A stretch of 64,000 bases of DNA from Tsukamurella ocularis (GTDB lineage: Bacteria; Actinomycetota; Actinomycetes; Mycobacteriales; Mycobacteriaceae). Of the stretch, positions 96-63,000 are shown in pieces. Location of the stretch: contig NZ_JANUCJ010000001.1 in the NCBI RefSeq assembly GCF_024807615.1, forward strand, positions 872,361-936,360, written 5' to 3'. Below the pieces are notes generated by a model, which did not search any database, was not told where the DNA came from, and saw nothing but the letters and a program-made list of their open reading frames with translations. A program made the translations under genes and the position numbers. Within the stretch, counting starts at the first letter, position 1; the number at the start of each line of letters is the position of its first letter.

Positions 96-949
96 CCATC
101 GCCCCCTACCGCCCGAAGGGCCTTCGCACCGTCGGACGGCTGACCGATTCGCTGCGTGGAGCCCTGGCCCGCCTCGGCCAGATGGTCTCGTTCGTCGTCT
201 CCTCGGTCGCGCTCATCCCCCACGCGCTCCGGAACTACCCCAAGCAGACAGTCCGCACCATCACCGACCTCACGTGGGGCCGCGGCGCCGTGATCGTCGG
301 CGGAGGCACGTCGCTGATGATGGTCGTCCTGGGTCTCGCCGTCGGCGGCACCGTGGCGATCCAGGCCTTCGCCTCCCTCGACCTACTCGGGATGGGCCCG
401 CTCACGGGCGTCATCGCCGCGCTCGCCAACACCCGCGAGTTCGCGCCGATCCTCGCCGCCGCCGGCTTCGCCGTCCAGGCCGGCTGTCGCATGACCGCCG
501 AGATCGGCGCCATGCGGATCACCGAAGAAATCGACGCGCTGGAGGCGCTCGGCCTCCGCTCGATCTCCTTTGTGGTCAGCACGCGCATGATCGCCGGCAT
601 CGTCGCGATCGTGCCGATCTTCCTCATCGCGATCATCGTGAGCTTCTTCGCCAGCAGCACGATCGTCACGCTGGCGCAGGGCGACGCGGCCGGCACCTAC
701 GAGCACTACTTCCAGCAGTTCCTCTCCCCCGCCGACCTCATCGCCTCCATCGCCAAGGTGATCGTCTTCATCTGTGCTGTGATCCTCATCCACTGCTATC
801 AGGGCTTCTTCGCCGGGGGCGGCCCCGAGGGCGTGGGCGTGGCGTCGGGCCGCGCCGTCCGGGCCTCGATGGTCGCCATCGTGGTGCTCGACATGCTGAT
901 GACCCTCAGCATCTGGGGCGCCAGCAGCGAACTGGTCTTCCGGGGGTGA
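92..949 (+). CDS. yrbEB: YrbEB, MlaE-family permease of the mce transporter
   Basis: This 285-residue polytopic membrane protein belongs to the MlaE/YrbE permease family. With YrbEA it forms the membrane channel of an Mce lipid importer driven by a separately encoded ATPase (MceG). Around residues 110-150 it shows the family core: an N-T-R-E-F-A-P-I-L segment followed by the T-A-E-I-G-A-M-R-I-T-E-E-I-D-A-L coupling helix that contacts the ATPase. About five hydrophobic segments follow a short basic amino terminus. The ATG at 92 fits the family's usual length. It is followed four bases later by mceA, as the second permease of a standard mce operon. The substrate cannot be read from the sequence; steroid or fatty acid is likely given the neighbours. 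Confidence 0.93.
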   Translation: MTIAPYRPKGLRTVGRLTDSLRGALARLGQMVSFVVSSVALIPHALRNYPKQTVRTITDLTWGRGAVIVGGGTSLMMVVLGLAVGGTVAIQAFASLDLLGMGPLTGVIAALANTREFAPILAAAGFAVQAGCRMTAEIGAMRITEEIDALEALGLRSISFVVSTRMIAGIVAIVPIFLIAIIVSFFASSTIVTLAQGDAAGTYEHYFQQFLSPADLIASIAKVIVFICAVILIHCYQGFFAGGGPEGVGVASGRAVRASMVAIVVLDMLMTLSIWGASSELVFRG

Positions 950-953
950 CGGC

Positions 954-2102: not shown

Positions 2103-2103
2103 C

Positions 2104-4175: not shown

Positions 4176-5284
4176 TGATCTCCAAGATCCTGGGCTCGAA
4201 ATGGCTGGTCACTGCGATCGCGATCACGGTGGTCGGGTCGATCATCGCGGCGGCCCTCTACGTCGCGCGCACCCCCGACAAGGCGCAGGCGCGGTACTGC
4301 GCGCTCATGCCCGACGCGATCGGCCTCTACGTCGGCAACCCCGTGACCCGGCTCGGCGTGCCGATCGGCAAGGTCACGGCCGTCAGTCCCGACAGCACCG
4401 CGGCGCGGGTCGAGTTCGACGTCGACGGCGACCAGTCCGTGAGTGCGAGCACCGGGGCGGTCACCGTCGCCGCGTCGCTGATCGCCTCCCGCCAACTCGC
4501 CCTCGTCGACGGTGCCACGAAGGGGCCTGCGCTGCAGGCCGGGAAATGCTTGACCGACACCAAGACCCCGCAGTCGCTGAGCCGCAGCCTCAGTTCCATC
4601 GGCGACGCAGCGGCGAAACTCACCACGGGCGGCGGCCCCGAACAGGCCAAGCAGGTGCAGGATTCGTTGACCTCCCTCGCGGCGGCGGTCGACGGCACCG
4701 GGCCCGACGTCAACGGCGTCATCGAGAGCCTCGCCACGCTGCTCGACGACCCCGGCCCCGGCATCGGCGACGTGGGCCGCAGCCTCGATTCGATCTCCTC
4801 TCTCACCGGCGGCATGACCTCGAACTGGAACCCGCTCAAGCAGCTCCTCGTCACCGCCCCCGACGGTCTCGCCGACATCATCGTCCCCACCGCGAAGACC
4901 ACCGAGACCCTCGCCGAGGCCCTGATCCCGCTCGGAAAGCTCCTGCGCGACCTGATCTCCCACTACGGCCACAACCTGTGGCCCATCCTCGACACCGTGA
5001 TCCCGGCGTCGCGACTGGTCAGCGCCGGTGTCAAGAACTGGGGCGACCTCCTCGGCTTCCTTCCGCCGCTGATCGACGCCTTCAACGTCTCCTTCGATCA
5101 GCGCACCCTGGGACTCAAAGTCGTCTTCACTCCGCCGTCGACGAAGATGGTCGCGCGGAACCCGGAACTGACCTGCGCGAACGTCAACCGGATCGCGCCG
5201 GGCCAGTGCAAGGTCGTCGACCCCGGCCACATCGACGTCGACCTGATCTCGGCCATCCTCCGCGGGACGGGAGCCGCCCGATGA
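4175..5284 (+). CDS. mceD: MceD, Mce-family protein
   Basis: A 369-residue Mce protein beginning M-I-S-K-I-L-G-S-K-W-L-V with an anchor helix at about residues 8-28 and an MCE domain with D-A-I-G-L-Y-V-G-N-P-V near residue 50. I chose ATG at 4175 because it overlaps the mceC stop (TGATG); a GTG at 4169 in the same frame would add two residues. Two cysteines lie in the terminal 35 residues. The stop overlaps the mceE start as ATGA at 5281-5284. Confidence 0.92.
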   Translation: MISKILGSKWLVTAIAITVVGSIIAAALYVARTPDKAQARYCALMPDAIGLYVGNPVTRLGVPIGKVTAVSPDSTAARVEFDVDGDQSVSASTGAVTVAASLIASRQLALVDGATKGPALQAGKCLTDTKTPQSLSRSLSSIGDAAAKLTTGGGPEQAKQVQDSLTSLAAAVDGTGPDVNGVIESLATLLDDPGPGIGDVGRSLDSISSLTGGMTSNWNPLKQLLVTAPDGLADIIVPTAKTTETLAEALIPLGKLLRDLISHYGHNLWPILDTVIPASRLVSAGVKNWGDLLGFLPPLIDAFNVSFDQRTLGLKVVFTPPSTKMVARNPELTCANVNRIAPGQCKVVDPGHIDVDLISAILRGTGAAR

Positions 5285-6324
5285 ACCGCCCGACTCTACG
5301 TGGCCGCATCTCCCGCGGCCTGCTCCTGCTGGTCGTCCTCGCGCTCGGCGTCGTCGGCGTCCTCCGGGCGAGCCCCTCGACGCTGCCCGACCCGACCACC
5401 TGGTCCACCTCGGGATGGCCACTGCGCGTGGAGTTCTCCAACGCCCTGAACCTGCCCGACCAGGCGCAGGTCCGGTTCAACGGCCGGTCCGTCGGACGGA
5501 TGGAGTCGGTGCGGCTCGACGGGGACCGCGCGGTCGCGACCCTCACCATCAGCGAGCCGGCCAGCATCCCCGCGGACACCAACGCCGAACTGCGGCAGGA
5601 CACCCTGCTCGGCGACGTCTACATCGCCCTCGTCTCGGCGCCCACCTCGACCGCGCAGCCGCTGCGGGCCGGCGGGCTCATCCCGCTCGCGCAGAGCCGC
5701 CCGCCGGACCACGTCGAGGACCTCATGACCAGCCTCTCGGGCTTCCTCGGCAGCGGCGGCGTCTCCCAGCTCGGCAACACGGTGCAGCGGATCGACGGTG
5801 CCTTCCCCGACGATCCCGCGCGCACCCGCAAGATCACCGACAACCTGGCATCCACGATCATGGCCTGGGCCAACGACACGAGCTCGCTGGACACTGCGCT
5901 CCGCTCCGTCGTCGGGGTCACCGGCACGATCGCCGCCGAACACGGGATGCTCAGCGAGTACCTCGCTCCGGAGGGCCTCCGGCGCTGGGGCGTCATCTCC
6001 GAGACCGCCCGGGTCACGGAGGTCTTCGCCTCGCTGGCCCCGCTGCTCACGAATGCGGCGCCCCTGACGCCCGGCATCCGTGATCTCGCCGCACTCTTCA
6101 CACAGGTGATCAGCCCGCTCCTGCTCCTCGACCGGCCCGTGGGCGCCACCCGCCCGGACAACCTCATCAACCTGCGCAACCTGTTCCGGGACAAGATCAT
6201 CCCGTGGGTGGAGCACGGCCCCAAGGTGAACGTCGTCAAGGTGTCCGACGGCCCCGCGGTGCCGACGGCCGAGAAGGCGGAGCAGGCGCTCCGCGCGATG
6301 CGCATGATCGGGGCAGTCCGATGA
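5281..6324 (+). CDS. mceE: MceE, Mce-family protein without a lipobox
   Basis: A 347-residue protein in the position of MceE, with an amino-terminal hydrophobic segment (residues 12-29), an MCE domain around 45-120 and the usual helical remainder. MceE of M. tuberculosis (LprK and relatives) is normally a lipoprotein anchored through a lipobox cysteine. Here the segment runs V-L-A-L-G-V-V-G-V-L-R-A-S and I find no cysteine anywhere in the protein, so it must be held by its uncleaved helix. It overlaps mceD and mceF by ATGA at both ends. Confidence 0.9.
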   Translation: MNRPTLRGRISRGLLLLVVLALGVVGVLRASPSTLPDPTTWSTSGWPLRVEFSNALNLPDQAQVRFNGRSVGRMESVRLDGDRAVATLTISEPASIPADTNAELRQDTLLGDVYIALVSAPTSTAQPLRAGGLIPLAQSRPPDHVEDLMTSLSGFLGSGGVSQLGNTVQRIDGAFPDDPARTRKITDNLASTIMAWANDTSSLDTALRSVVGVTGTIAAEHGMLSEYLAPEGLRRWGVISETARVTEVFASLAPLLTNAAPLTPGIRDLAALFTQVISPLLLLDRPVGATRPDNLINLRNLFRDKIIPWVEHGPKVNVVKVSDGPAVPTAEKAEQALRAMRMIGAVR

Positions 6325-7280
6325 AGAAGGAAGTCCTTGCGAACGCGATCACGTTCACCGTCGTCCTCCTGGTCGGACTCTTCATCCTCCTCGTCGGCTA
6401 CATGGGACTGCGGCCGGGCGTAACGTACACGACGCTCTCGCTCAAGCTCGCGCACACCGGACAGCTGTCAGCCGGCACGCCCATCCTCCTGCGCGGCGTC
6501 CGGATCGGTGATGTGACCGGCGTGGAGCCGTCGACCGACGGCGTGCGGATCGCCCTCAGGTACCCGGCGGAGTACCGGATCCCCGTCGACTCCGCCCTGT
6601 CAGTCGAGCAGCTCAGCGCGCTCAGCGAGCCGTACGTGGAGTTCGCACCCCGCTCGTCCGGCGGCGCCGTCTTCACCTCCGGCAGCGAGATTCCGGCGAC
6701 CGCGGTCTCCCAGTCCCGGTCCGTCAGCGACGTCTTCGAAGCGCTCGCCGCGCTCAACCGCACGGCCGACACCGGGGCGCTCGGCGGGATCGTGAAGACA
6801 GCCTGGCAGGCAACGTCGGGCCGCGATGACGACCTGACCACACTGAGCCGGGCCGGTCAGCTACTCAGTTCGACGGTGCTCAGCCGGATGCCCGCGATCC
6901 GCAGCATGTTCGCCAACACCCAGGTCTACTCGGCGGATCTGGACTGGACCGCGAACGCCGTGCAGCGGCTCGGCGCCGAGTTCCAGAACACCGCGAACGT
7001 GGTGCTCAGCGCGGTGCAGGCCGTGCAGCGGATGGTGCTGACGCTCAACGCACCCGACCCGTTCGTGAACACCATCGACCCGTTCCTCAAGCGGCTCAAG
7101 CCCTACCTCGACGAGCTGCTCCCCGCACTCGCCACCACCGGCGGCCCGTTCATCTCGATCTTCTCGGCGCTCAATCGCACGGTGCCGCAGATCGATCTCA
7201 GCACGCTCCTGTCGAACGCCCTGCAGGTCGCCGGCACCGACGGTGCCGCCCGCGTCACCCTGACCCTTCCCCGCCCCTGA
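6321..7280 (+). CDS. mceF: MceF, Mce-family protein
   Basis: A 319-residue Mce protein, last of the six, with a signal-anchor helix at residues 8-28, an MCE domain (S-A-G-T-P-I-L-L-R-G-V-R-I-G-D-V-T-G) and a helical tail. It starts at ATG 6321, overlapping mceE. It is shorter than many MceF proteins, which often carry a long proline-rich tail; here the protein stops soon after the helical domain. Fourteen bases separate it from the mas gene, so it belongs to the same transcript. Confidence 0.9.
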   Translation: MKKEVLANAITFTVVLLVGLFILLVGYMGLRPGVTYTTLSLKLAHTGQLSAGTPILLRGVRIGDVTGVEPSTDGVRIALRYPAEYRIPVDSALSVEQLSALSEPYVEFAPRSSGGAVFTSGSEIPATAVSQSRSVSDVFEALAALNRTADTGALGGIVKTAWQATSGRDDDLTTLSRAGQLLSSTVLSRMPAIRSMFANTQVYSADLDWTANAVQRLGAEFQNTANVVLSAVQAVQRMVLTLNAPDPFVNTIDPFLKRLKPYLDELLPALATTGGPFISIFSALNRTVPQIDLSTLLSNALQVAGTDGAARVTLTLPRP

Positions 7281-7294: not shown

Positions 7295-8029
7295 ATGGCG
7301 CAGGAGCACGATCCCGACGAAGCCGCCGCCGGCACACCGGAGACCGACCCCCGCGGCACCGCCGGCGCCCGGAAGAAGGTGCGCCCGGAGAGCGCGGAGC
7401 CGACGCGGCGGTCACCGTCGGGCACGGTGCGCACCGTCCTCGCGACGGTCGTGGTCGTGGCCCTCATCGTCGCCTCGGTACTGCTCTACCTGCAGACCCG
7501 CACGCTGGGCACCGAGCGCCAGGAGGCCGCCGACCGGGCGCGCGCGGAGCAGATAGCCTCCGATTACGCCGTGAAGGCGGCGACGATGGACTACCGCGAC
7601 CTGACCCCGTGGCTCAACGGCGTGAAGGCCGGGGTGACACCGGAACTGGCGAAGAAATTCGACTCCATCCTCGACCTGATGCGGGAGGTGGTCACGCCGC
7701 TGCGGCTGACCTCCACGGGGCGAGCGTCTTTCGCCAAGACCACCTCCGAGGTGAACGGCATCTACCAGGTGAAGGTCGCCGTCGACGTCTCCTCGCAGAA
7801 CGTCCAGGCCCCGCAGGGCACTGTCAGCACGAGCACCTACTCGGTGAGCCTGGACCGGAACCGCGACTGGATCATCACGGAGGCCGGCGATCCCGCGAAC
7901 CCCAACGCCGTACTCAGCGGCGTCGGCGGGGGCTCTGCCCCGACCGCGAACCCGTCGGCCTCGGCCACCCCGCAGCCACCCACCCCCACCATGCCCGCGC
8001 TGCCCGCACCGTCGGGCACCCCCAACTGA
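7295..8029 (+). CDS. Mce-associated membrane protein (Mas)
   Basis: A 244-residue protein with a charged, disordered cytosolic amino terminus (residues 1-45), one transmembrane helix (about 47-68) and an extracytoplasmic domain, ending in a proline/serine tail. Mas (Mce-associated) proteins are encoded directly after mceF in many mce operons, and Mas-type proteins such as OmamA are needed for Mce complex stability. A good purine-rich site (gagagga) precedes ATG 7295. The carboxyl tail contains one copy of the GCACCGTCG word, encoding A-P-S. Confidence 0.8.
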   Translation: MAQEHDPDEAAAGTPETDPRGTAGARKKVRPESAEPTRRSPSGTVRTVLATVVVVALIVASVLLYLQTRTLGTERQEAADRARAEQIASDYAVKAATMDYRDLTPWLNGVKAGVTPELAKKFDSILDLMREVVTPLRLTSTGRASFAKTTSEVNGIYQVKVAVDVSSQNVQAPQGTVSTSTYSVSLDRNRDWIITEAGDPANPNAVLSGVGGGSAPTANPSASATPQPPTPTMPALPAPSGTPN

Positions 8030-8465: not shown

Positions 8466-9383
8466 ATGTCAGGCTCGTCCAGCCCCGTCGGCGACGTCGG
8501 CTCGTCCGACGGTGCGCCGCTCACCCTCGAGTGCACCCGGATCACCATCCCCGCCACCCACCGTCGGTACACCAGTCGGGATCTCGCGGTCACCGACGCC
8601 CTCGACCTCTGGGGGTTCGCCGGCGCCGCCGCGAACGTCGCGATGCAGATGATGAGCCCGGGTGTCGGGCACGGCGTCGTGGAATCGACGGTGGACAGCG
8701 GCGCGCTGATGAAGCGCCCCTGGAAGCGGGCACGCACCACGACCCAGTACCTCGCGGTCGCGATCCTCGGCACCGAACAGGAGAAGGAGGCGTACCGCGA
8801 GGCGGTCAACGTCGCGCATCGCCAGGTGAAGTCCCGGCCCGGAGCCGCGGTGAAGTACAACGCCTTCGACCGGAACCTGCAGCTCTGGGTCGCCTCCTGC
8901 CTCTTCGTCGGCTTCGAGGACACGTACCAGATGCTCAACGGGAGGCTCCCCGACAACCAGGCCGAGAGCTTCTATCAGTCCTGCGCGACGCTCGGCACCA
9001 CCCTGCAGGTGCCGCGCGACATGTGGCCGGCCACACGCGCCGAGTTCGACGAGTACTGGGTCCGGGCTTGCGCCGAGGCGCGGCTCGACGAGCCCGTGGC
9101 GGCGTACGTCGACGACCTGCTGAATCTGCGGATGATCAACCTGCCCATGCGCATCGTCTTCGGCGGCCTGCTGAAGTTCCTGACGGCCGGATTCCTCGCC
9201 CCGTATTTCCGCGAGCAGATGCAGGTCGAGTGGAGCGCGGCCGATCAGCGCCGGTTCGACAACCTCTTCGCGTTCGTCGCCCTCGTCAACCGGTTCATCC
9301 CACGGTTCCTGCGGTTCGGGCCGACCCGCTCGCTCATGGTCGACCTGCGGCTGCGGATGAGCGCGGGCAAGCCCCTCGTCTGA
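8466..9383 (+). CDS. MpaB-family (DUF2236) oxygenase, mce-operon copy
   Basis: A 305-residue protein of the DUF2236/MpaB oxygenase family, which includes latex-clearing and mycophenolic-acid-pathway enzymes and binds haem or iron in characterised members. Family features visible are N-V-A-M-Q-M-M near residue 58, R-A-R-T-T-x-Q-Y-L near 90, the histidine in V-A-H-R-Q-V and the L-F-V-G-F-E-D-T segment near 150. It is the last gene of the mce operon (11 bases after the small membrane gene) and ends in a terminator. A paralogue lies at 10745, beyond the TetR gene. Likely role: oxidising imported lipid; the substrate is unknown. Confidence 0.8.
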   Translation: MSGSSSPVGDVGSSDGAPLTLECTRITIPATHRRYTSRDLAVTDALDLWGFAGAAANVAMQMMSPGVGHGVVESTVDSGALMKRPWKRARTTTQYLAVAILGTEQEKEAYREAVNVAHRQVKSRPGAAVKYNAFDRNLQLWVASCLFVGFEDTYQMLNGRLPDNQAESFYQSCATLGTTLQVPRDMWPATRAEFDEYWVRACAEARLDEPVAAYVDDLLNLRMINLPMRIVFGGLLKFLTAGFLAPYFREQMQVEWSAADQRRFDNLFAFVALVNRFIPRFLRFGPTRSLMVDLRLRMSAGKPLV

Positions 9384-9431: not shown

Positions 9432-10616
9432 TCAGCCGGGGAAGAGCACCGCGCAGACCAGGGCGTACACCTCGGCCTGGAACTCCGGGTCGGTATCGAA
9501 GCGACGCGTGCGGCCCACGTCGAAGACCACGGCGAAGGCCGCGTGCACGAGGAAGACCGCCTCGGCGGCGCTGAGCTCGGGCCGGACCGCCACGACCGCA
9601 TCGGCGAATGCTGCGATGTTGGCCCGCTGGATCCCCGCAAGCCGGCTGCGGTCGGCGTCCGGGACGTTGCCGATCTCGCGGAAATAGACGGTCATCAGCT
9701 TCGATCGCAGGAAGGACAGCTGCACGTAGGCCTGCGCGAGCGCGGCGAGCCGGTCCGCGGGATCCTGCACCGAGGTGGAGACCTCGGCGATCGCCCCCGC
9801 GACGCCGTCTGCTGCTTGATCGAGGGCGCTCACCAGGATGCCGGCCTTGCTCGGGAAGTAGCGGTACATGCCCGACGGGACGATGCCCGCGGCGCGCCCG
9901 ATCTGTCCCATGCTCACGTTGTGGAAGCCGTGCTGGAAGATCTGCTCGATCGCCTCGACCAGCACCTGCTCCTGGCGACCCGCCTCCGGCGCGGGCTCGA
10001 CCGGCGGTGCGACCGTGTAGGGCACCCGCGGCGCGGGCAGCGCCAGCACCTGCCGCGCGGCCGCGGTGAGCACGACCTCGGCTCGCTTCTGCGCCAACAC
10101 CGTCCGGTGCGCGGTGACGCTGCCGGTCACGCTGATCAGGGCCACGCTGCGCAGGTCGACCTCGCTCCGGTCCACGCCCGGGAGCGCGGGCTGCGCGGCA
10201 TCGGCGACGGTGCCGATCATCTCGGTGAGCTGCTCCCGGATCCGTGCCCTGTCTTCGCCCTCGAGGAGACGCTGCTCCCACCGGAACAGTCCTCCGGTGT
10301 TGCGGCGCTCGAAAGAGACGCCCAGGGCGGCCTCGATGATCGCGTCGACGCGCTCCCCCGGCGCCTTTCCCGCCGTGGCCTCGGCCGCATCGTCGACGGC
10401 GTGGCACAGCGCATCGGAGGCGGAGGTGATGGCGTGCTCGAGTAGCGCGTACTTGTTGGGGAAGTGCCGGTAGACGGCGGGCCCACTGATGTCGAGCGAC
10501 GCGGCGATCTCCTCGATCCCGACGCCGTGATAGCCGCGCCGGGAGAAGTCCTCAGCAGCGACCCGCGCGATCTGCTCGCGCCGGTCCTTGGGCCGCTTCC
10601 GCCGCGCCTGTGTCAC
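9432..10616 (-). CDS. Tandem double-TetR-domain regulator, Mce3R-like
   Basis: A 394-residue protein with two complete TetR units in one chain. The first recognition helix region is at residues 34-55 (ending V-Y-R-H-F-P-N-K) and the second at 236-257 (ending M-Y-R-Y-F-P-S-K). Most TetR proteins have one unit of about 200 residues; Mce3R of M. tuberculosis is the known example of a fused pair and controls an mce operon. The gene lies between two MpaB-type oxygenase genes and beside the mce operon, so regulation of both is likely (inference). The start at 10616 has a GAGGAG site upstream. It diverges from the second oxygenase across 128 bp that contain an inverted repeat. Confidence 0.88.
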   Translation of the reverse strand: MTQARRKRPKDRREQIARVAAEDFSRRGYHGVGIEEIAASLDISGPAVYRHFPNKYALLEHAITSASDALCHAVDDAAEATAGKAPGERVDAIIEAALGVSFERRNTGGLFRWEQRLLEGEDRARIREQLTEMIGTVADAAQPALPGVDRSEVDLRSVALISVTGSVTAHRTVLAQKRAEVVLTAAARQVLALPAPRVPYTVAPPVEPAPEAGRQEQVLVEAIEQIFQHGFHNVSMGQIGRAAGIVPSGMYRYFPSKAGILVSALDQAADGVAGAIAEVSTSVQDPADRLAALAQAYVQLSFLRSKLMTVYFREIGNVPDADRSRLAGIQRANIAAFADAVVAVRPELSAAEAVFLVHAAFAVVFDVGRTRRFDTDPEFQAEVYALVCAVLFPG

Positions 10617-11725: not shown

Positions 11726-11778
11726 CTCGTCCCCGGCACCCGCCCGACGGGGCCGGCACCGTCGGGCGGGAAGAACCG

Positions 11779-16910: not shown

Positions 16911-16954
16911 GCGAAGGGCCCGGCACCGTCGTTCGACGGTGCCGGGCCCTTCGC
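16911..16954. terminator. Bidirectional terminator, 20-bp perfect stem built from GCACCGTCG words
   Basis: Arms 16911-16930 and 16935-16954 pair over 20 bp around the loop GTTC. The loop-proximal half of each arm is one copy of the over-represented 9-mer (16923-16931 and 16934-16942) in opposite orientation. It lies between fadB and the convergent DUF805 gene. Confidence 0.9.
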
Positions 16955-17603: not shown

Positions 17604-21858
<4,255 letters not shown>

Positions 21859-21893
21859 CGGCACCGTCGACCTGGGCCGTCCGCGCAGACAGA

Positions 21894-37468: not shown

Positions 37469-37486
37469 TCCCCTGCTCCTCCGGTC

Positions 37487-37526
37487 CGACGGTGCCGGGC
37501 TCGCCTCAGGGCGGCCGGCACCGTCG
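37487..37526 (+). terminator. Terminator after phoX formed by inverted GCACCGTCG words
   Basis: Arms CGACGGTGCCGG (37487-37498) and CCGGCACCGTCG (37515-37526) pair over 12 bp around a 16-base loop. Each arm contains one full 9-mer word in opposite orientation. Confidence 0.8.
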
Positions 37527-37536
37527 CATTTGTGCC

Positions 37537-45578: not shown

Positions 45579-48431
<2,853 letters not shown>

Positions 48432-50956: not shown

Positions 50957-51957
50957 CAGGCCACCGCCTGCTGCTGCGCGGCGTTGACGAAGAGCGGCTC
51001 GAGCTGGGGCAGGATCCACTCCCGGCTCAGCGGGGTGGGCTGGTTCAGCGCGATCACCGTCTGCAGGTCGACGACCTGCGTCGCGCCCGAGGTCACCTGC
51101 GGCAGGCCGGCGTAGCCGGGCAGCCGCTGAAGGTCTGCGGCGGTGGCGCCGTTCGGGTAGATCACCATGAGGTTCGAAGCGATCTGGGGGAGCAGCTCCA
51201 GCGACACCGGGGTGCGTCCGCCCTGCTGGCCGGCTCCCGTGGCGAAGCGCGGGTTGTCCTTGATCGCCTTCGGGAGGGTCATCCCCAGTTCGGCGAACAT
51301 GGTGTTGGTCGGGTCGGCAGCAGAGGAGACGAAGTTGAATGTGCTCGACGCGGCGATGTATTGCGCGAGGACCGCCGACTTGCCCTGCAGCCCCGGGTGC
51401 CGCTCGCGGACGGCGGCGAACCGCGCCTTGTCGTCCGCGAGAACACGGTTCACGACATCCGTCTTCCCGAGGATCTTCCCCAGGGCCTTGAGCTGGACGT
51501 CCCACGCGGCGCTGGAACCGTTCTCCTCGATGCCGCCCAGCACTGTGGTGACGGCGGACAACCGCTCGAAGGTGGGCTTATCGACGACGTAATTGTCGCC
51601 GGCGAACAGCTCGGGGCGGTACTTCGCGATCTCCTCGACCGGCATGGACTTCTTGTCCGGCGACTTGATGATCGGGATGCCGTCGAGCTGCTTGCCGTGC
51701 CAGGGCGCGGGCAGCGGCAGCCCGCCCTCCACCACGGCGACGGGCTTGATGCCGAGGGCGAGGAGATTGTCGATCGAGTAGCCGGTGGCGACGATGCGGG
51801 TCGGACCGACGGGGAACACGGTGACCCCGTTGACCTGCGTGATCGTGACGGTGCTCGCCGCGGGGGCGGCACCGTCGGAACCCGAACCACCGCACGCCGT
51901 CGTGACCAGCCCGACCACCGATACCGCGGCAATGAACACCGTGCTGACCCGCCTCAT
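50956..51957 (-). CDS. Iron-siderophore-type ABC substrate-binding lipoprotein (first of pair)
   Basis: A 333-residue paralogue of the next gene with the same blocks (R-I-V-A-T-G-Y-S-I-D-N-L-L-A-L-G-I-K-P, E-I-A-K-Y-R-P-E-L, L-E-L-L-P-Q-I-A-S-N). The lipobox cysteine is C22 in V-T-T-A-C. GGGAGGG precedes the ATG at 51957. It leads a two-gene operon born by tandem duplication; the copies have since diverged, so they may bind different ferric chelates. Confidence 0.86.
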   Translation of the reverse strand: MRRVSTVFIAAVSVVGLVTTACGGSGSDGAAPAASTVTITQVNGVTVFPVGPTRIVATGYSIDNLLALGIKPVAVVEGGLPLPAPWHGKQLDGIPIIKSPDKKSMPVEEIAKYRPELFAGDNYVVDKPTFERLSAVTTVLGGIEENGSSAAWDVQLKALGKILGKTDVVNRVLADDKARFAAVRERHPGLQGKSAVLAQYIAASSTFNFVSSAADPTNTMFAELGMTLPKAIKDNPRFATGAGQQGGRTPVSLELLPQIASNLMVIYPNGATAADLQRLPGYAGLPQVTSGATQVVDLQTVIALNQPTPLSREWILPQLEPLFVNAAQQQAVA

Positions 51958-52040: not shown

Positions 52041-52670
52041 TCAGTTGACGGAGACGTCCACGGGGTGGGTCGCGAGCAGCGCGGTCGGCAGTCCCTGACG
52101 GCGGAGCACCCTGCCCCACAAGTCCACCCGCGAGGGCACCAGGACGTCGGTGTGCAGGGAGCCGCAGGGGATCCAGTCGTCGCGCTCGAACTCGTCGTCG
52201 AGCTGCCCCATGCCCCAGCCGCTGTACCCGGCGAAGACGCGCACGCCGTCGAGTAGCTCGTCCATCATCTCCACGTCGGAGTCGAGGTCCACGAGCACCA
52301 CCCGGCCGGCAACGGGCTGCAGACCGCGGATGCCGTTCACGTCCACGCCGGCCTTCACCACGCCCAGGCACAGCGCCGCCGACTGATTGACCGGGCCGCC
52401 GACGAACACCGCCTTCGGCTTGGCCGCCAGGTCATGCCACCGGGGGAGCACCCCGTGCACCGCGGACTCGCTGGGCCGGTTCAGGACCACACCCAGGCTG
52501 CCCGACTCGTTGTGCTCGATCAGGTAAACGACGGTGCGGGAGAACGTCGGCTCGACCAGCTCCGGGGAGGCGACCAGCAACGTGCCCGAAGACACCTCGA
52601 AGCCCGCATCGGCGGGCTCGCCGGAGGACGCGCCGCCCTGCGTCGGCTCATTCGAACGATCTGGACCCAC
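52041..52670 (-). CDS. YqgE/AlgH family protein (UPF0301, Rv0038-type)
   Basis: A 209-residue protein of the conserved YqgE/AlgH family. G-T-L-L-V-A-S-P-E near residue 30, L-G-V-V-L-N-R-P-S near 58, V-F-V-G-G-P-V near 88 and the hallmark F-A-G-Y-S-G-W-G-M-G-Q-L near 145 are all seen. Function is not established. GTG 52670 is the only start giving the whole domain, with GGGGG upstream. Its order next to a divergent MFS gene is that of Rv0038-Rv0037c. Confidence 0.9.
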   Translation of the reverse strand: MGPDRSNEPTQGGASSGEPADAGFEVSSGTLLVASPELVEPTFSRTVVYLIEHNESGSLGVVLNRPSESAVHGVLPRWHDLAAKPKAVFVGGPVNQSAALCLGVVKAGVDVNGIRGLQPVAGRVVLVDLDSDVEMMDELLDGVRVFAGYSGWGMGQLDDEFERDDWIPCGSLHTDVLVPSRVDLWGRVLRRQGLPTALLATHPVDVSVN

Positions 52671-52744: not shown

Positions 52745-54073
52745 GTGACGACCAGCGGAACGGACGCTCCCGCCGCCGCTGCGAAACCCGCGTGGCGGAC
52801 CTTCCGCGACCTGCCCGACCTGCTGCGTCTGCTCGGCGTCCGCCTCCTGAGCCAATACGCCGAGGGCCTGTTCCAGGCCGGGCTCGGCACCGCCATCGTC
52901 TTCAACCCCGAACGGAACGCCACCCCGGCAGCCATCGCCACCGGCCTCGCCGTCCTGCTACTGCCGTACTCGGTGATCGGGCCCTTCGCCGGCGCCCTGC
53001 TGGACCGCTGGGACCGGCGCCGCGTCTTCATCGTGGCCAACCTCGTGCGCGCGCTGCTCATCGCCGCATGCGCGGGGGTGCTCGCTTCGGGGGCGGGAGA
53101 GACGGCGATCTTCGTCGTCGCGCTGGCCGTCGGCGGCGCCGGCCGCTTCGTGGCGTCCGGCCTCTCCGCCGCGCTCCCGCACGTGGTCGACCGGCCGCAG
53201 CTCGTCGCGATCAACTCCCTGACCACGACCATGGGGGCCGGCGCGACCGCGGTTGGCGCCAGCACGGCCGTCGGGCTGCGGGCGATCTTCGGCTCCGACG
53301 ACGGGGGCGGCGCCTGCGTCCTCGCCGTCGCCGTGCTCGTCGCGGTCCTCGGCGCGGTGCTCTCCACCCGCTTCCCCGCGGGCGTCCTCGGCCCCGACCA
53401 CGACGTCTCCGGCAAGCACGAGAAGCCCCCGACCGCGCTCAGCGATGTCGCCGCCGGCCTCGCGCACGGGGCCCTCGCCGCGTGGCGCGCACCGTCGGTC
53501 ACGGCGGCACTGACCGGCATGGGGGCGCACCGAACGGTGTTCGGGTTCAACACCCTGATGCTGCTCCTGCTCACCCGGCACCACTTCACCGACGGAACCC
53601 TGGGCCTCGCAGGATTCGGCTCGATGGCCGGTGCGACCGCGCTCGGCATGTTCGTGGCCGCCGTGTTCACGCCCTTCGCGGTGGCCCGGTGGGGACGCCG
53701 TAACACCGTGGTCGGGGCGCTCGCGGTCGCGTGCCTCACCCAGCTCACGGTGCTGTCCCTGAACTTCGTGATGCTGGTCGTCGCCGCCGCGGTGCTCGGC
53801 CTCGCGGGTCAGGTGGTGAAGTTGTCGGGCGACGCGGCCATGCAGCTCGACGTCCCCGACGAGCGCCGCGGCCAGGTCTTCGCCTTCCAGGACGCCCTGT
53901 TCAACGTGACCTTCGTGGGCGCGGTCGCCTTCGCTGCCGCGGTGGTCCCGTTCGACGGCGTCTGTCGCCCGCTCGCCGGCTTCGGCGCGCTGCTGTACGC
54001 GGTCGCCGTCGGGCTCGTCGTGCTCCTCTACCGCCGCACGGGAACCCCGGAGGCCGCCGGCGCGTCCAATTGA
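52745..54073 (+). CDS. MFS transporter (Rv0037c-type)
   Basis: A 442-residue membrane protein with 12 hydrophobic segments of the enterobactin-exporter-like MFS branch. It has a D-R-W-D-R-R-R motif after helix 2 (about residue 82), R-F-V-A-S-G-L near 138 and D-V-P-D-E-R-R-G-Q-V-F-A-F-Q-D-A near 375, typical of that group. Its position beside YqgE matches Rv0037c. The substrate is unknown. One base separates it from the next gene, so they are co-transcribed. Confidence 0.86.
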   Translation: MTTSGTDAPAAAAKPAWRTFRDLPDLLRLLGVRLLSQYAEGLFQAGLGTAIVFNPERNATPAAIATGLAVLLLPYSVIGPFAGALLDRWDRRRVFIVANLVRALLIAACAGVLASGAGETAIFVVALAVGGAGRFVASGLSAALPHVVDRPQLVAINSLTTTMGAGATAVGASTAVGLRAIFGSDDGGGACVLAVAVLVAVLGAVLSTRFPAGVLGPDHDVSGKHEKPPTALSDVAAGLAHGALAAWRAPSVTAALTGMGAHRTVFGFNTLMLLLLTRHHFTDGTLGLAGFGSMAGATALGMFVAAVFTPFAVARWGRRNTVVGALAVACLTQLTVLSLNFVMLVVAAAVLGLAGQVVKLSGDAAMQLDVPDERRGQVFAFQDALFNVTFVGAVAFAAAVVPFDGVCRPLAGFGALLYAVAVGLVVLLYRRTGTPEAAGASN

Positions 54074-54074: not shown

Positions 54075-54632
54075 ATGGGGGACGAACTGATCGAGTACTG
54101 GTTCGGCGACGGCGAGGGCCATCTCACCCGCTGGACCTCGCCCGGTGCGCTGGGTTCGGTGCTGCTCGACTTCGACGGTGACGGCCGGATCGACGACGCG
54201 ATGGTCGATCTCGACGGGGATGGCCGGGCGGATGTGGCCGCACTCGATCTCGACGACGACGGGACCCGTGAGGCCACCTTCCGCGACGACGGCTCGGGCC
54301 GCTGGGCGGAATCCACGCAGGCGCCCGGCGCGGGCCCGGTGGGGCGGGGGGTCGGGGCTGACGCCCGGCCCGATCATGTCCACAACGGGCTGCCCGGAGC
54401 CGCAGGCACACCGGCGCGAGCGGCACCGTCGGCGTGCCCCATCCCCGGCGTCACGGGCGTGCAGGCCCCCGGGCCGGACAAGCCGGTGCGGGTCGTGCCC
54501 GTGTCTGCGGAACCGGGGCAGCCGGCCCGGCAGGCCGTCGCCGATACGGACGCCGACGGTGCGCCCGACGTCCTGCTCTTCGACACCGACGGCGACGGTA
54601 CGGCGGACGGCGCGACCGATCTGCAGCAGTAG
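54075..54632 (+). CDS. DUF6802-like protein with calcium-binding-type aspartate repeats
   Basis: A 185-residue acidic protein containing five D-x-D-x-D-G-type loops: D-F-D-G-D-G-R-I-D-D and D-L-D-G-D-G-R-A-D near residues 32 and 44, D-L-D-D-D-G near 58, then D-T-D-A-D-G and D-T-D-G-D-G-T-A-D in the last 35 residues. Such loops bind calcium in dockerin and thrombospondin-type repeats. There is no signal peptide. A proline/alanine linker of about 90 residues separates the two groups. It resembles actinobacterial DUF6802 proteins (name from memory). ATG lies one base after the MFS stop. Confidence 0.72.
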   Translation: MGDELIEYWFGDGEGHLTRWTSPGALGSVLLDFDGDGRIDDAMVDLDGDGRADVAALDLDDDGTREATFRDDGSGRWAESTQAPGAGPVGRGVGADARPDHVHNGLPGAAGTPARAAPSACPIPGVTGVQAPGPDKPVRVVPVSAEPGQPARQAVADTDADGAPDVLLFDTDGDGTADGATDLQQ

Positions 54633-54671: not shown

Positions 54672-54677
54672 GGCCGC

Positions 54678-56650: not shown

Positions 56651-56658
56651 GACCGACC

Positions 56659-56719: not shown

Positions 56720-56725
56720 CGGGGG

Positions 56726-57631
56726 GTGACCTCCGCCGAATCCGCCGACTCCTCGGGCCGCCCGCAGCGCCCGGGGCCCGTCGGCGACTCCGCTGGCGGA
56801 ACTCCATCCCGGCCGCGGCGCCGGCGACGGCGCGGAGGCCGTGGGCGCGGCCGCGGCCAACTCTCGGCCGTCACTGATCAGCAAGCGACACCGGAGGCCG
56901 CCGGCGCACCGTCGGAGCCCGCCCCGGCCGCGAAGCCCGCCCGTAAGCAGGGCACACCGACCACCAAGGCCAAGCGTCCCGTGCCCGGGCGGGCCCGCCC
57001 CGACCCGCGCATCCGGACGGTTCGCGAGACCTCGGCGGGCGGCCTTGTCGTCGCCGGGCTCGACGGTGCCGCCGAGCTGCGGGCCGCGCTCATCGGGCGC
57101 GTCGACCGCCGGGGCCGCACTCTGTGGTCGCTCCCGAAGGGACACATCGAGACGGGCGAGACCGCCGAGCTCACCGCGATCCGCGAGGTCGCCGAGGAGA
57201 CGGGCCTCACCGGCTCCGTGCTGGCTCCGATCGGCAAGATCGACTACTGGTTCGCCGTCGAGGGCCGCCGCGTGCACAAGACGGTGCACCACTTCCTGCT
57301 GTCCTGGCAGAGCGGCGACCTCTCGACCGAGGACTACGAGGTCTCCGAGGTGGCGTGGGTGCCGCTGGCCGAGCTTCAGACCCGGCTCACCTACTCCGAC
57401 GAGCGCAAACTCGTTGCCACCGCGCGCACCGTCATCGACGACCTGACCGCTGACCCGGACGAGCTGGCCACCCGGTTGGCCGCCGCCCCGCGCAGCGAGC
57501 CCACGGCGTACGAGCGCGCCGCGGCCGAGCGCAACGCCGTCCGCAACGATCCGCCGAAGCCGCGCCGCCGGCGCGGTGGCAGGCGCTCCCGCGGGCGCCG
57601 CGGCGGTGGTGGCGGGAGCGGTCAGACGTGA
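56726..57631 (+). CDS. mutT4: NUDIX hydrolase (MutT4-type) with basic RG-rich tails
   Basis: A 301-residue protein. The Nudix box lies at 139-161 with all key residues (G139, E145, R153, E154, E157, E158), so it should hydrolyse a nucleoside diphosphate linked to another group. The folded domain is framed by arginine/glycine-rich tails at residues 30-44 and at the last 30 residues, which could bind RNA or DNA. Position matches Rv3908. The stop overlaps the next start as GTGA, so it heads a coupled operon with the DUF6049 and murJ genes. Confidence 0.9.
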
Positions 57632-60099
57632 CCCGGTCGGCCCGCCTGCTGTGCGTGCTGACGCTCCTGATCGCGATCACCGGCCTGCCCGCGCCGAGCG
57701 GGGCCGGCCTTCCGGACGCGCAGTTCGTACGGATCACCGTCGACGAGGTCACCTCGCGGATCACGGACACCTCTCCGAACGAGGTGGTAGTGCGCGGCAG
57801 TGTCGAGAACTTCGGCGACCGCGACGTGAGTGACTTGGACCTGCGGATCCAGCGGGCGCCGGCGGTGTCGACGTCCGCCCAGTTGCGCTCCGACCTGGTG
57901 GCCGACAACAACGTCTACGACACCCTGGGCCGGTTCGAGCCGGTCTCGAAGGTGCTCAAACCGGGGGAGAAGACCTCCTTCAACGTCGCCATCCCCGTGC
58001 GGCCCTCGCCCACGACGCGCGGCGCCACCCTCGGCATCGACCGGCCGGGCGTCTACCCGCTGCTGCTCAATCTCAACGGCAAGCCCGCGTACGGCGGCGC
58101 CGCGCGGCTCGACGATTCGCGGACCCTGCTGCCCGTCCTCGGCCTGCCCGACGGTGGCGCCGACACCCCGGGCGGCGTCGACAAGGCCGTCACGACCTCA
58201 CCCGCGCAGGTCACGCTCCTGTGGCCACTGGCCGACAATCCGAAGCTCGCGGGCGGCGTGCCCGGCGGCGGCGACACTCCGGTCCGGCTGGTGGACGACG
58301 CGCTCGCCGGGTCGCTGGGCGAGGGCGGCCGGCTCGACGGCCTGCTGTCGGCCTACGAGGACGCGACCCGCGGCCCCGATCCGCGGCGCACCGCCCTACG
58401 AACGGCCGCCTGCCTCGCGATCGACCCCGACCTGCTGGTCACTGTCCAGGCGATGACCGCGCCGTACCGCGTCTCCCGCAATCCCTCCGACCCGCGCGGC
58501 CCCAGTGCTCCCGGCACCGGCAGCGACGAGGCGAGCGCCTGGTTGGAGAAGCTGCGGCGCGTCGCCGCCGACTCCTGCGTGGTCGCGCTGCCCTTCGGCC
58601 AGGTCGACCTCGAGGCCCTCGGTCGCTCCGCCGAGCCCTCGCTGCAGCGCGCCGCGCTCGACACCCCGTCCGACGTCATCGACTCGATCCTCGGCGTGCA
58701 GTCCGTGCGGGGCGTCGCGATCCCGACCTCCGGGGTCCTCCTGTCCGACGGTGCCCGGCAACTCCGGGCCTCCGACGTCGCTGCCACCGTCGTTGCCGCG
58801 ACCGCGGTGCGGGCCCCCGACCGCGGCGCCGGCACCCCGTCGGGCATCGTCCCGGTGGGGCAGGGCATCGGCGCCGCCGTCTTCGACCCGAGCGTCTCCG
58901 CTGCGCTCGCCGCGATGGGGAAGACCTCCGACGGCGCCGAGGACGGCGTCGCCCCCGGCCCGACGGGCACGGTGCCCAGCTCGTCGACGTTCTCCATGTC
59001 CGAGGAGTCGGCGGCCATGCGGCGACAGGCGGCGGTCGGCGCCGTGACCGCGGCCGCGCTCGACCCGACCCAGCGCTACGCCCCGCCCGACGGGTGGGCG
59101 GCGAGCACCGCCAACGACCCCGTCGCGCGGGTGACCGGCCGATCCACGCTGATCGTGCCGCCCCAGGTGTGGGCCGCGGGCCCCGACGATGCGCGCGCGG
59201 TCCTCGACGCCGTCTCCGCCCAGTTCGGGGCCGGCCTCGCCGGTCCCCGCACGTTCCGCGACGTCGTCGCCTCCGCCCAGTCGACGGGGCGCGACCCGGT
59301 GCGCAACGCGGCGCCCTGGACGTTGCGGCAGCCGCCCGAGTCGACGGCCTCGCGGGTGCCTGACCGGATCGTCACGGCTGCCGCCGCGCACGTACGACAG
59401 GTCGACCAGCTGGGCGCTGCCCTCCTCCCGCTGCCGAAGACCTCGCTCACGCCCCGCATGTACACCTCACCGCTGCGGGAGGACGCTGTGCGCGCGCTGC
59501 GCTGGGCACCGTCGCGGCAGGCGGTCGACGGTGACGCCTCCATCCGGCTCACGGCCGCGCGGGCGTCAATGACGGCCCAGCTCGCCTCGGTGCGCTTCGT
59601 CAGCCCCGGCGGCGCGTACACCCTGGCCTCGGACAAGTCGCCGCTGCTCATCGTCGCGCGCAACGACCTGCCGCTGCCGATCCGCACCGTCATCGACTGG
59701 TCCGCCCCCCAGGGCGTGACCATCGACGCCTCCGAGGTGCAGGAGCTGCCCGCGCGCGGCACGCGGCAGATCGAACTACCGACCACCGTCGACTACTCGC
59801 GGCAGATCTCCGTGCAGCTGACCCTGCGATCGAGCAGCAACATGCCGCTGGGCGATCCGATCTCCGTCTCCGTGCACTCCAATGCGTACGGCAAATCACT
59901 GTTCTGGATCACATGCGGGGTGGGGATACTGCTGGTCGTCCTTGCCGGGCGGCGCCTGTGGCGCCGGTTCCGCGGCCGTCCCGACCCCGCAGACGCCGAC
60001 CGTCCCCCCGCGGACGACCACGAGAAGCGGATCGCGAACAGTTACGCTGCACATCGACCACCTGCTACACACGAGAACCCGGAACCGAAGGACACATGA
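57628..60099 (+). CDS. DUF6049 family secreted/membrane protein (Rv3909-type)
   Basis: An 823-residue envelope protein: Sec signal peptide (residues 1-26), a large extracytoplasmic part with an amino-terminal immunoglobulin-like stretch and a carboxyl one near 640-740, then one membrane helix (about 760-780) and a basic cytosolic tail. Family DUF6049, matching Rv3909 in place and length. Its function is unknown. Translational coupling to the NUDIX gene (GTGA) and to murJ (ATGA at 60096) links it to peptidoglycan precursor export. Confidence 0.88.
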
Positions 60100-63000
60100 G
60101 CCGCGCCGAGCCCCGGCACATCCCGCCGAGCAGCACTCCCGCCGCCGGCGGGAAGGACGGCGGCGGTACCGCTTCCCTCCTGCGCTCCACCGGCTCGGTC
60201 GCCGTCGCCACGCTCACTTCCCGCGTCACCGGATTCCTGCGTACCGTGCTACTCGCGGCCATCCTCGGGCCGGCCGTCGCCTCCGCGTTCAGCATCGCCA
60301 ACGCAATGCCGCAGCAGGTCTCCGAGCTCGTCCTCGGGCAGGTCCTCACCGCTCTGGTCATTCCCGTGCTGGTCCGGGCGGAGATGGAAGACAGGGACCG
60401 CGGGCAGGCCTTCTTCGAGCGTCTCTTCACGCTCTCACTCACGATCCTCGGCGTCGCTCTGGTCGTCTCGCTCGCTCTGTCGCCGGTCCTCGTGGGCCTG
60501 CTGGTCGGGGGCTCCAAGGTCGACGAGGGCCTGACCCAGGCGCTGGTCATCATGTTCCTGCCGCAGTTGATGTTCTACGGCCTCTCCGCGCTGTTCACGG
60601 CGATGCTCAACACTCGCGATGAGTTCAAACCCGGTGCGTGGGCGCCAGTCGCCTGCAACAGCGTGCAGATCGCGACCCTGGTGACCTTCTACCTCATGCC
60701 CGGAGAGCTGACCCTGAACCCGACCGCGATGGGGCAGCCCAAGCTCCTGGTCCTGGGCATCGGCAGCACGCTGGGTGTGGTGTTGCAGGCACTGATCCAG
60801 ATCCCTGCCATGCGCCGCTCCGGAATCAAGCTCCGCCTGCGCTGGGGCGTCGACAGCCGGCTCAAGCACTTCGGCACCATGGGCATCGCGATCGTCACCT
60901 ACGTCTTCATCTCGCAGGCCGGCTGGTACGCCGTGACGCCGATCCTCTCGCACGCCTCCGACGGCGGCCCCGCGATCTACCAGTACGCGTGGATGGTGCT
61001 CCAGCTGCCCTACGGCGTCATCGGCGTAGCCCTGCTGACCGCGGTGATGCCGCGGCTGTCGCGCAATGCGGCAGACGGCAACCGCAATGCGGTCCTCGAT
61101 GACCTCTCCGTGGCGACGCGCCTGACGATGGTGGCGTTGATCCCGATCGTGGCCTTCATGACGGTCTTCGGGCCCTCCATCGGCCGCGCGCTGTTCAACT
61201 TCGGCCAATTCTCCCAGGATGACGCCAACTTCCTGGGCACCGCGATCTCGTTCTCCGCGTTCGTGCTGGTCCCCTACGCGATGGTGCTCATCCACCTCAG
61301 GGTCTTCTACGCCCAGGAGCGCGCCTGGATCCCGACGGGGATCGTGGTCGCGATCGTCGCCGTGCAGATCGTGCTGTCGTACCTGGTACCGGTGTTCGTG
61401 GAGGACGACCACCGGATCGTCGAGTTCGTCGGCACCGCCCGCGGCCTGGCGTACACCGCCGGCGCGATCATGGGTTGGTACCTACTGCGCCGCACGCTCG
61501 GCCCGCTGCACCTGACGAACGTCGCCCGCACTCTGGTCCAGACCACGACCGTATCCGTGCTGGTCACCGTGACGATCTATCTCGTCATGCGGCTCGACGT
61601 GCTCAAGGCGATCGATCGCAGCGGGCCCGCCGGCGCACTGCTGTACCTTGCAATCGCAGGCATCCTCTGCATGACGTTGATCTACGCGCTGCTCGCCCTG
61701 TGGCGAGTACCGGACGTGCTGGCGATCCTGGCACCTCTACGGCGCATCGCGGCCCGGTTCGTCCCGGGCCTACGGCCAAGCGCACCGTCGGAACCGGAGC
61801 GCGCGGACTCCCGTGCCCCGGACACCCGGGAGATGCGGCTCGACGAACTGGAGGCCTACGCGAGCCTCCGGCGCGAGGAGATCACCGCCCAGCTGCCGCG
61901 GATCGCCGACGACATCGGCCTCCCGTATGCTGGTCAAAGCCATGTTCCCCGGCGCCCGCGGGCGAGCGCAGAACTACCGACCACGGGCCTTCGATACCGC
62001 AGAAGAGGAGCATTCGCAGTGACCGAGGACGACTCCGCACGCATGCCCGGCCACGAGGCACCCAGCACCGGTCAGATGCGACTGCCGTCCCAGCCCCCGG
62101 CGCAGCAGGCGGGCCTCCCGGCAGTGCCCGAGCCCGCCGATCCTGGGGCGTGGGACGACGCCCCGCGCGGTCCCGAGCTGATTCCCGGCGCGGTCGTCGC
62201 GGGCGGCCGGTACCGCCTCATCGAGCACTTCGGCGGCATCCGCGGGCTCCAGTTCTGGCAGGCGCGCGATATCAACCTCGACCGCGACGTGGCCCTGACC
62301 TTCGTCGATTCGGAGCAGACCGCGCCCGTTCCCGAGCGCGGAGCGCAGATCAGCCTGCGCGGCGAGGGCCCGCAGTCCATCCTCTCCCGCACCCTGCGCC
62401 TGGGTCGCGTGCACTCGAACGGATTGGCCCGCGTACTCGACGTGGTGCGCGGCAGCTCCGGCGGCATCGTGGTGGCCGAGTGGATTCCCAGTAGCTCGCT
62501 CGCCGACGTGGCCGGTACGCATCCGTCGGCGATCGGCGCGGCGAAGGCCGTCCGCGCCCTCGCGGGCGCCGCGGAAGGCGCGCACCGCGCCGGTGCCGCC
62601 CTGTCGATCGACCACCCTGACCGCGTGCGCATCTCGCAGGACGGCCACGCCTTCCTCGCCTTCCCCGGCACCCTCGCGGATGCCTCGAAGGAGTCGGACG
62701 TCCGCGGCCTCGGTGCCGTGCTCTACGCACTACTGCTGGAGCGGTGGCCGCTCGACGACGCGACGGGCCGCATCGTGACCACCGGGACGGGCACCGTCGC
62801 CGGGATCCAGCAAGCGGACGCTGACGCGAACGGAAACCCGGTGGAACCGCGGGACGCCAAGCGCGACATCCCGTTCGAGATCTCCGCGGTCGCGACCCGC
62901 ACGCTCGAGGGTGGGCAGGGCATCCGCACCGCGGCCACCGTACAGCAGCTGCTGGACCAGGCCTCCGTGGTGGACGTGAAGACGGACCTGCTCGCACCCG

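Follow-up and report, generated by a model that had tools for sequence, protein, structure and literature searches.

A non-palindromic nine-base word in excess across Tsukamurella genomes resembles a DNA uptake sequence

The word in the window

The stretch of DNA analysed here (the window) comprises 64,000 nucleotides of Tsukamurella ocularis (assembly GCF_024807615.1, contig NZ_JANUCJ010000001.1, positions 872,361-936,360) and holds, among others, the gene leuS and genes of the PhoX, MarR and MurJ families, within and between which the nine-base word GCACCGTCG recurs in both orientations. The word is non-palindromic, with CGACGGTGC as its reverse complement. Exact matching gave 48 copies, 25 forward and 23 reverse, the first starting at 126 and the last ending at 62799, which is the very count of the original prediction, a note made from the sequence alone, and placed the word at rank 1 among the 29,923 distinct strand-merged 9-mers of the window. 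The genome is labelled G000 below, and other genomes of the genus and stretches of DNA are likewise cited by working labels (G..., L...). The features are listed here with their strand; each rests on an exact match to GCACCGTCG or its complement, unless another basis is given.

126..134 (+) word GCACCGTCG
4507..4515 (-) word
5793..5801 (-) word
6871..6879 (-) word
7238..7246 (-) word
8006..8014 (+) word
8507..8515 (-) word
10205..10213 (-) word
11756..11764 (+) word in convergent intergenic gap, no unusual fold (exact match, folding)
12285..12293 (-) word
12908..12916 (+) word
14255..14263 (-) word
14581..14589 (-) word
15292..15300 (+) word
16915..16950 (no strand) inverted word pair, terminator-like, between convergent predicted genes (16889 and 16978) (folding)
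16923..16931 (+) word, left hairpin arm (exact match, folding)
16934..16942 (-) word, right hairpin arm (exact match, folding)
17812..17820 (+) word
18733..18741 (-) word
19436..19444 (+) word
21235..21243 (+) word
21861..21869 (+) word outside predicted genes
23251..23259 (+) word
24677..24685 (+) word
30686..30694 (-) word
31198..31206 (-) word
34993..35001 (+) word
37484..37530 (no strand) inverted word pair, terminator-like hairpin between PhoX-family and MarR-family genes (folding)
37487..37495 (-) word, left hairpin arm; in 10/11 aligned genus genomes (exact match, alignment, folding)
37518..37526 (+) word, right hairpin arm; in 5/11 aligned genus genomes (exact match, alignment, folding)
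37576..37584 (+) word near start of MarR-family gene
39615..39623 (-) word
42709..42717 (-) word
43957..43965 (-) word
46849..46857 (+) word in leuS; 11/11 aligned genus genomes (exact match, alignment)
48271..48279 (+) word in leuS; 7/11 aligned genus genomes (exact match, alignment)
48886..48894 (+) word; 11/11 aligned genus genomes (exact match, alignment)
49098..49106 (-) word
50873..50881 (-) word
51869..51877 (+) word; 7/7 aligned genus genomes (exact match, alignment)
52529..52537 (-) word
53489..53497 (+) word
54423..54431 (+) word
54554..54562 (-) word
56906..56914 (+) word in divergent gap
57061..57069 (-) word
58746..58754 (-) word
59506..59514 (+) word
61782..61790 (+) word in MurJ-family gene
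62791..62799 (+) word in MurJ-family gene

The excess is about six-fold under strict null models

Over the whole genome (4,306,542 bases in 9 contigs) the word occurs 1,317 times on one strand and 1,281 times on the other, 2,598 copies or 0.60 per kb, while the same letters read backwards give only 34 + 34 = 68 copies. Independent base frequencies predict 1.86 copies in the window, so that the 25-fold excess first proposed was arithmetically right but too generous: under a third-order Markov model (Markov-3) a 464 kb sample of G000 holds 295 copies against 53.8 expected (5.5-fold), and a synonymous-codon shuffle of 438 G000 genes, predicted with a simple in-house gene finder, leaves 276 observed against 43.9 expected (6.3-fold, z 36). 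A fair figure is thus about six-fold rather than 25-fold. The same shuffle in G125 gave 205 copies against 24.8 (8.3-fold), and the Markov-3 ratio lay between 4.3 and 6.8 in the seven high-word genus genomes sampled; small samples from five other genera of the family gave 0.4-1.4 under Markov-3 and 0.9- to 2.8-fold under the codon shuffle. Both kinds of model named in the original prediction as possible explanations, Markov and codon-matched, fall far short of the observed count. The excess in Tsukamurella is real, and an artefact of base composition is ruled out, since it persists under both nulls.

Selection or drive acts on the DNA

Eleven genus genomes supplied the 77 stretches (1.58 Mb) in which reading frames and intergenic gaps were analysed. 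Coding DNA showed an excess in all six frames, greatest where the codon usage is worst: the frame read as Ala-Pro-Ser (A-P-S) holds 183 copies against 3.6 expected, and even the R-R-C frame holds 5 against 0.3. Intergenic gaps of 12-600 bp held 71 copies against 5.9, counts that are not independent of one another because several of the genomes share orthologous stretches. The 276 coding copies of the G000 sample are read as D-G-A (109), T-V (114), A-P-S (45) or otherwise (8), so the expectation that the word is read mainly as A-P-S or D-G-A stands for those two readings but missed T-V, the commonest one. The codons it imposes are indeed rare, GCA being 5.2% of Ala codons and GGT 9.8% of Gly codons in G000. 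In this genome the word encodes 109 of the 210 D-G-A tripeptides, whose Gly codon is GGT in 115 of the 210 vs 13% where D-G is followed by another residue, and A-P-S is spelled GCA-CCG-TCG in 45 of 97 cases. Because the excess appears in six frames, between genes and in synonymous codon choice, the force is selection or drive on the DNA itself and not on protein, as had been proposed from the window, and the first and second of these observations rule out an origin as a protein motif.

Placement, strand balance and hairpins

Coding copies predominate (276 of 295 in the 464 kb sample). Over the 77 stretches, 433 copies read in the sense of their gene and 502 against it, and twelve stretches to the left of the replication origin carried 100 forward and 96 reverse copies, so that the check on strand bias suggested with the original prediction revealed none with replication on this sampled left replichore. 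The origin was placed by dnaA/dnaN at the start of the G053 chromosome and by matching gene order immediately to the right of the window (L105), contig 1 being assumed collinear.

Outside all predicted genes of one genome the density was 0.38 per kb. Convergent gaps, again of 12-600 bp and with counts that are likewise not independent, held 25 copies in 12.8 kb, codirectional gaps 43 in 63.3 kb and divergent gaps 4 in 37.0 kb, and G000 alone gave 8 in 4.8 kb, 9 in 24.2 kb and 1 in 11.5 kb, respectively. Relative to Markov-3 the enrichment is about 18-fold in convergent gaps and about 3-fold in divergent ones, the latter resting on only 4 copies. Within codirectional gaps 31 copies lay nearer the downstream gene and 12 did not, and as predicted starts are rough we draw no conclusion from this.

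Part of the intergenic copies form inverted pairs. The pair at 16923/16934 folds into a perfect 16-bp stem with a 4-base loop (minimum free energy -37.8 kcal/mol, z -8.65, with 0 of 200 shuffles as good), the hairpin at 37487/37518 reaches -34.6 kcal/mol (z -5.14), and the single word at 11756 folds ordinarily (z -0.30). Among 899 gaps there were 10 inverted pairs within 48 bp, and 6 of the 18 words located between genes in the G000 stretches were accompanied within 50 bp by an exact inverted partner, whereas 5 lacked one even at two mismatches. Over 16 genomes close pairs were inverted in 279 + 369 = 648 cases vs 394 direct ones, some of the latter being tandem repeats. In G000, 46 inverted pairs (0-30 bases between the words) and 18 direct pairs compare with about 24 of each expected from density, a genome-wide excess of inverted pairs of only about two-fold that involves a few percent of copies. 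The claim that copies pair to make terminators therefore holds for two terminator-like sites of the window and for a small minority of copies genome-wide, and with 46 inverted pairs vs 2,598 copies an origin of the word as terminators is ruled out.

A second rare repeat, CGCTAGGGA, was observed 10 times in the 464 kb G000 sample against 0.2 expected (Markov-3). In two gaps between convergent genes, next to L009:18303 and L021:12702, it adjoins the word within the hairpin-like TCCCTAGCGGGA.

Flanks and variants

The base before the word was G or C in 87-90% and T in 2% of copies, and the base after it was A or G in 70-74% (295 copies in G000, 211 in G125). A preceding G or C was found at 284 of 328 copies in G000 and at 64 of 82 outside the genus, which makes the flank preference genuine but modest in size. 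Among the genes of G000, one-base variants were at least 1.5-fold over the codon shuffle in 18 of 27 cases and below 1 in 4 of 27, the transitions among them reaching at least 1.5-fold in 7 of 9. The first position was the most tolerant, with the most enriched variants, and the last was also raised. In G125 more one-base variants lay near or below 1, including the transitions A3G (0.93), G6A (0.63) and C8T (0.43, one copy). A single form of the word was seen across the genus samples.

The word is conserved within variable surroundings

In the parts of the window that could be compared with ten genus genomes, 121 of 172 site-by-genome comparisons showed genic words intact, where 9-mers matched in codon phase, GC and CpG content predict 64.0; these comparisons share history and are not independent. 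Longer alignments gave the same picture, words being kept in 31 of 34 cases between G000 and G030 (21.3 expected) and in 20 of 32 between G000 and G086 (11.9 expected). Word interiors were more conserved than other coding positions in 9 genomes and equally so in one (G053), whereas the positions 4-60 bp around words were less conserved in 10 of 10, in line with the original prediction that copies favour tolerant places. Conserved copies within permissive stretches have been reported for the DNA uptake sequences (DUS) of Neisseriaceae and the uptake signal sequences (USS) of Pasteurellaceae (PMC2397512).

Where just one member of the pair G000/G030 has the word, the other departs from it by a single base in 11 cases and by two bases in 6, and polarising the changes with G086 gave 8 gains and 8 losses. 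If the six-fold excess is stationary, it would amount to a scaled advantage per copy near ln 6 (about 1.8).

Distribution across the genus and beyond

The related genomes, which the original prediction had proposed for comparison, carry the excess too, and strongly so in 14 of the 16 genus genomes, with 1,911 to 4,002 copies or about 425-817 per Mb (per-Mb values are based on rounded genome sizes). The other two are G153 (1,247 copies, 265 per Mb) and G154 (827 copies, 165 per Mb). Outside the genus we compared 141 genomes of the family and 392 of the class (18 shared, 515 distinct), among which the maximum was about 177 per Mb (G195, 1,112 copies in 6.3 Mb); by this measure G153 thus exceeds what other genera reach, whereas G154 falls among them. 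Within the family, the word is mildly more frequent than its reversed form in other genera as well. In five of them (37-80 kb each) the top 9-mers had 8-21 copies, and the top score of G016 (z 12.7) rested on 8.

A tree built from leucyl-tRNA synthetase, in which 15 genomes of the genus stood beside Gordonia, Williamsia, Rhodococcus, Prescottella and Mycobacterium, grouped G153 with G154 (100/97) as sister to the other 13 genus genomes (100/100), from which we infer that most of the rise took place on the branch leading to the crown clade. The sister clade also carries the word, since the contigs fetched from G153 (61 copies in 193 kb) and from G154 (26 copies in 66 kb), a fragmented metagenome bin of 890 contigs, are 2.9- and 4.2-fold over Markov-3, respectively. 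G152, whose assembled leuS match is broken, was not included in the tree.

Three side observations concern these assemblies. The leucyl-tRNA synthetase match of G152 (G152:C1:4355106-4357928) is split in three pieces, which together with 83% completeness suggests an error-prone assembly. Contig G154:C775 (L149, 9,780 bases) is exactly as long as a record titled Acidobacteriaceae bacterium isolate BOG_194 that carries the same gene, and this public title looks wrong for the metagenome bin. In the sister species G153 (L128-L137), CCCCCCCCC occurs 46 times, overlaps counted, in 193 kb against 0.8 expected.

Competence and methylation genes

In G000 the gene for a ComEA-like protein, with SLBB and HHH_3 domains, immediately precedes comEC, which is followed by a gene resembling that of the DNA polymerase III delta subunit; the genome also has a tad/flp cluster that we read as TadZ/CpaE-TadA-TadB-TadC-Flp-TadE-like, TadA being assigned by Pfam and the other names by reading of the sequences. 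In the actinobacterium Micrococcus luteus, tad genes are reported to be required for transformation (PMC4322843). A C5 methylase was found in 14 of 16 genus genomes, missing from the high-word G148 and G070, and an N6/N4 methylase in 4 of 16, so that neither of the two families searched, to which our methylase search was confined, tracks the word.

Discussion

The USS of Pasteurellaceae have a nine-base core, at roughly one copy per 1-2 kb, and AT-rich flanks, and DUS and USS together span about 0.5-1 copy per kb. Like the USS core, the Tsukamurella word is nine bases long and asymmetric, lies on both strands and has conserved copies in permissive stretches; it differs in phylum and sequence and in having no long flanking tracts and no gene-terminus bias. 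With the DUS of Neisseriaceae and their dialects it shares a limitation to related species, conservation, abundance that varies between species and terminator-like inverted pairs, such as are reported for DUS at terminators (PMC3630211). Unlike for DUS, no receptor of the ComP type was identified in Tsukamurella, where the pilus machinery found is Flp/Tad, and the word was seen in one form only. Since the word has the anatomy of DNA uptake sequences, it is best, if tentatively, read as an uptake or self-recognition word; it is the likeness in anatomy that the data support, and an actual role in uptake is conjectural. On this reading the word would be a genus-specific mark for self-recognition, maintained as DNA through weak selection or drive. 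A protein would read it, and that protein would be a DNA receptor that works with the Flp/Tad pilus and the ComEA-ComEC channel and binds the word in free DNA, so that DNA of the same genus would be preferentially taken up and recombined; copies arising by point mutation would spread and then be kept, uptake itself driving their accumulation.

Several results weigh against an uptake role. Two contigs that we take, from their length, to be plasmids carry the word at near-chromosomal density instead of being depleted: there are 44 copies in the second contig of G053 (99.8 kb; 0.44 per kb vs 0.49 in the chromosome sample) and 27 in a 61 kb contig of G137 (0.44 vs 0.57). An apparent depletion of the former (7 copies in 40 kb) proved wrong once the whole contig was counted. 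In Neisseria, atypical DUS content has served to find mobile elements (PMC7371117). G000 stretches of low GC content (100 kb) that could not be aligned to those of G030 and G086 are poorer in the word (24 copies, 0.24 per kb) yet still 3.8-fold over Markov-3. Spacing of the copies is near random rather than even (coefficient of variation 1.12 vs 1.02 +/- 0.06), and position within genes is flat in G000 and G125, with no bias to gene ends, whereas USS are reported to be biased to gene termini in all Pasteurellaceae (PMC2346458). A following purine, at 230 of 328 copies in G000 vs 48 of 82 in other genera, is only modestly above the latter. All 16 genus genomes have ComEC, as do 10 of 14 unrelated controls, and the T2SSE/TadA family, which was seen in 15 of the 16 but not in the fragmented G154, is present in all 14 controls; not being genus-specific, neither explains the restriction to the genus. 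Our analysis identified no receptor for the word, and in the open-licence literature we found no report of competence or natural transformation in Tsukamurella.

To these points is added phage TPA2, which has 17 copies in 61.4 kb (0.27-0.28 per kb) against 4.0 expected from the codon shuffle and 5.5 from Markov-3, that is, 4.2-fold over the codon shuffle (P about 1e-6), although the word is not among its 12 highest-scoring 9-mers. A purine follows 5 of its 17 copies vs 32 of 44 and 18 of 27 in the plasmid-like contigs. The counts for phages TIN2 (3 copies in 45 kb) and TIN3 (2 in 40 kb), at 0.05-0.07 per kb, are not significantly above expectation, and no excess was seen in the first 45 kb of each control phage, namely Godines (1 copy) and CRB2 (0), which are Mycobacterium relatives of TPA2, and the Gordonia phage GTE5 (3). 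The likeness to uptake sequences that the original prediction had drawn therefore holds in length, density, strand balance, conservation and inverted pairs, and is countered by the plasmid-like contigs, TPA2 and the lack of gene-end bias.

Some observations on the mobile DNA stand by themselves. Two IstA-like transposase genes with equal Pfam scores lie in the low-GC (0.60-0.69) non-aligning region (L106:15949-18533, there followed by an IstB-like gene, and L109:2218-4802; G000 contig 1 near 1.016 and 1.082 Mb), and this region near the origin is probably a genomic island. Scans of viral contigs for close word pairs yielded at least 176 stretches of 4 kb or more, in which copies were counted; of seven dense ones (L261, L320, L335, L353, L355, L356 and L357), L353, L355 and L357 are tandem arrays, and L335:3374-6469 has eight same-strand copies over 3.1 kb at spacings that are all multiples of three bases, which suggests a repeated peptide within one gene. 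We claim no new word-bearing phage from these scans.

The near-chromosomal density on plasmid-like contigs and the 4.2-fold excess in TPA2 suit another explanation, in which a cytoplasmic DNA-binding, chromosome-maintenance or methylation system reads the word and long-resident replicons accumulate it with no uptake, residence in the cell mattering and not chromosomal recombination. This would be akin to HIP1 of cyanobacteria, with which the word shares an extreme genome-wide excess and mostly genic copies, here randomly spaced, and the enrichment of one-base variants at the first and, less so, the last position recalls the bias of HIP1 variants to the first and last nucleotides (PMC4390886). 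HIP1, however, is a palindrome tied to methyltransferases (PMC4390886), whereas the Tsukamurella word is not palindromic and neither C5 nor N6/N4 methylases, the only two families searched, accompany it; inverted pairs at gene ends are a trait of DUS (PMC3630211), and the copies of TPA2 lack the flank preference. We regard this explanation as possible but rather unlikely. A genus-specific bias of mutation or mismatch repair that turns near-matches into the word, with no function, would likewise act on every replicon, the phage and the plasmid-like contigs among them. In G000 most near-matches show no depletion, the ground on which conversion by a Vsr-like repair was rejected, although the picture is weaker in G125; and a process blind to its site would not be expected to yield the contrast between convergent and divergent gaps (with only 4 divergent copies), so that such a bias appears improbable.

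An asymmetric, over-represented and mostly genic word is also what one would expect of a signal for recombination or protection akin to Chi, at which a nuclease such as AdnAB or RecBCD halts, and carrying it could benefit a phage. In the repair of broken forks one orientation of Chi is favoured, and the Tsukamurella word has no orientation bias with replication on the sampled replichore, nor within genes, on the figures given above; it equally lacks the origin-to-terminus strand skew of the polar segregation motifs KOPS and AIMS. Signals of the Chi or KOPS type were rejected for this lack of strand bias, and a Chi-like role seems very improbable. As for a by-product of codon context, amino-acid or base composition, the other genera of the family do show a mild excess over the reversed word and, in five small samples, 0.9- to 2.8-fold over the codon shuffle, but the same nulls give 6- to 8-fold in the genes of this genus, where the excess extends to all frames and to the DNA between genes and synonymous choice is extreme, and we give such an origin next to no credence.

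The uptake or self-recognition reading therefore stays our preferred, provisional one. Its fuller form we offer with yet more reserve: the word may be a working uptake sequence in a mycolic-acid actinobacterium, a host with its own kind of outer membrane, served by a receptor of the Flp/Tad pilus and not by a type IVa minor pilin, of independent origin outside Pasteurellaceae and Neisseriaceae, and far less built up in the sister clade. No earlier description of the word came to light in open-licence literature on uptake sequences of Actinobacteria, over-represented oligonucleotides and competence of mycolata, as the original prediction had supposed; papers listed as containing the 9-mer on both strands do not name the genus, and the available part of a survey of abundant oligonucleotides (PMC2843746) makes no mention of Tsukamurella.

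If the word is a true uptake sequence, specific DNA uptake would have arisen once more, in a phylum for which we found none in the literature searched, and the low-word sister clade beside the high-word crown clade would allow the build-up of such a system to be studied. Otherwise, a genus of mycolata would have a DNA-reading system that dictates about half of its Asp-Gly-Ala and Ala-Pro-Ser codons. Either way, the word is a handle for isolating the protein that reads it.

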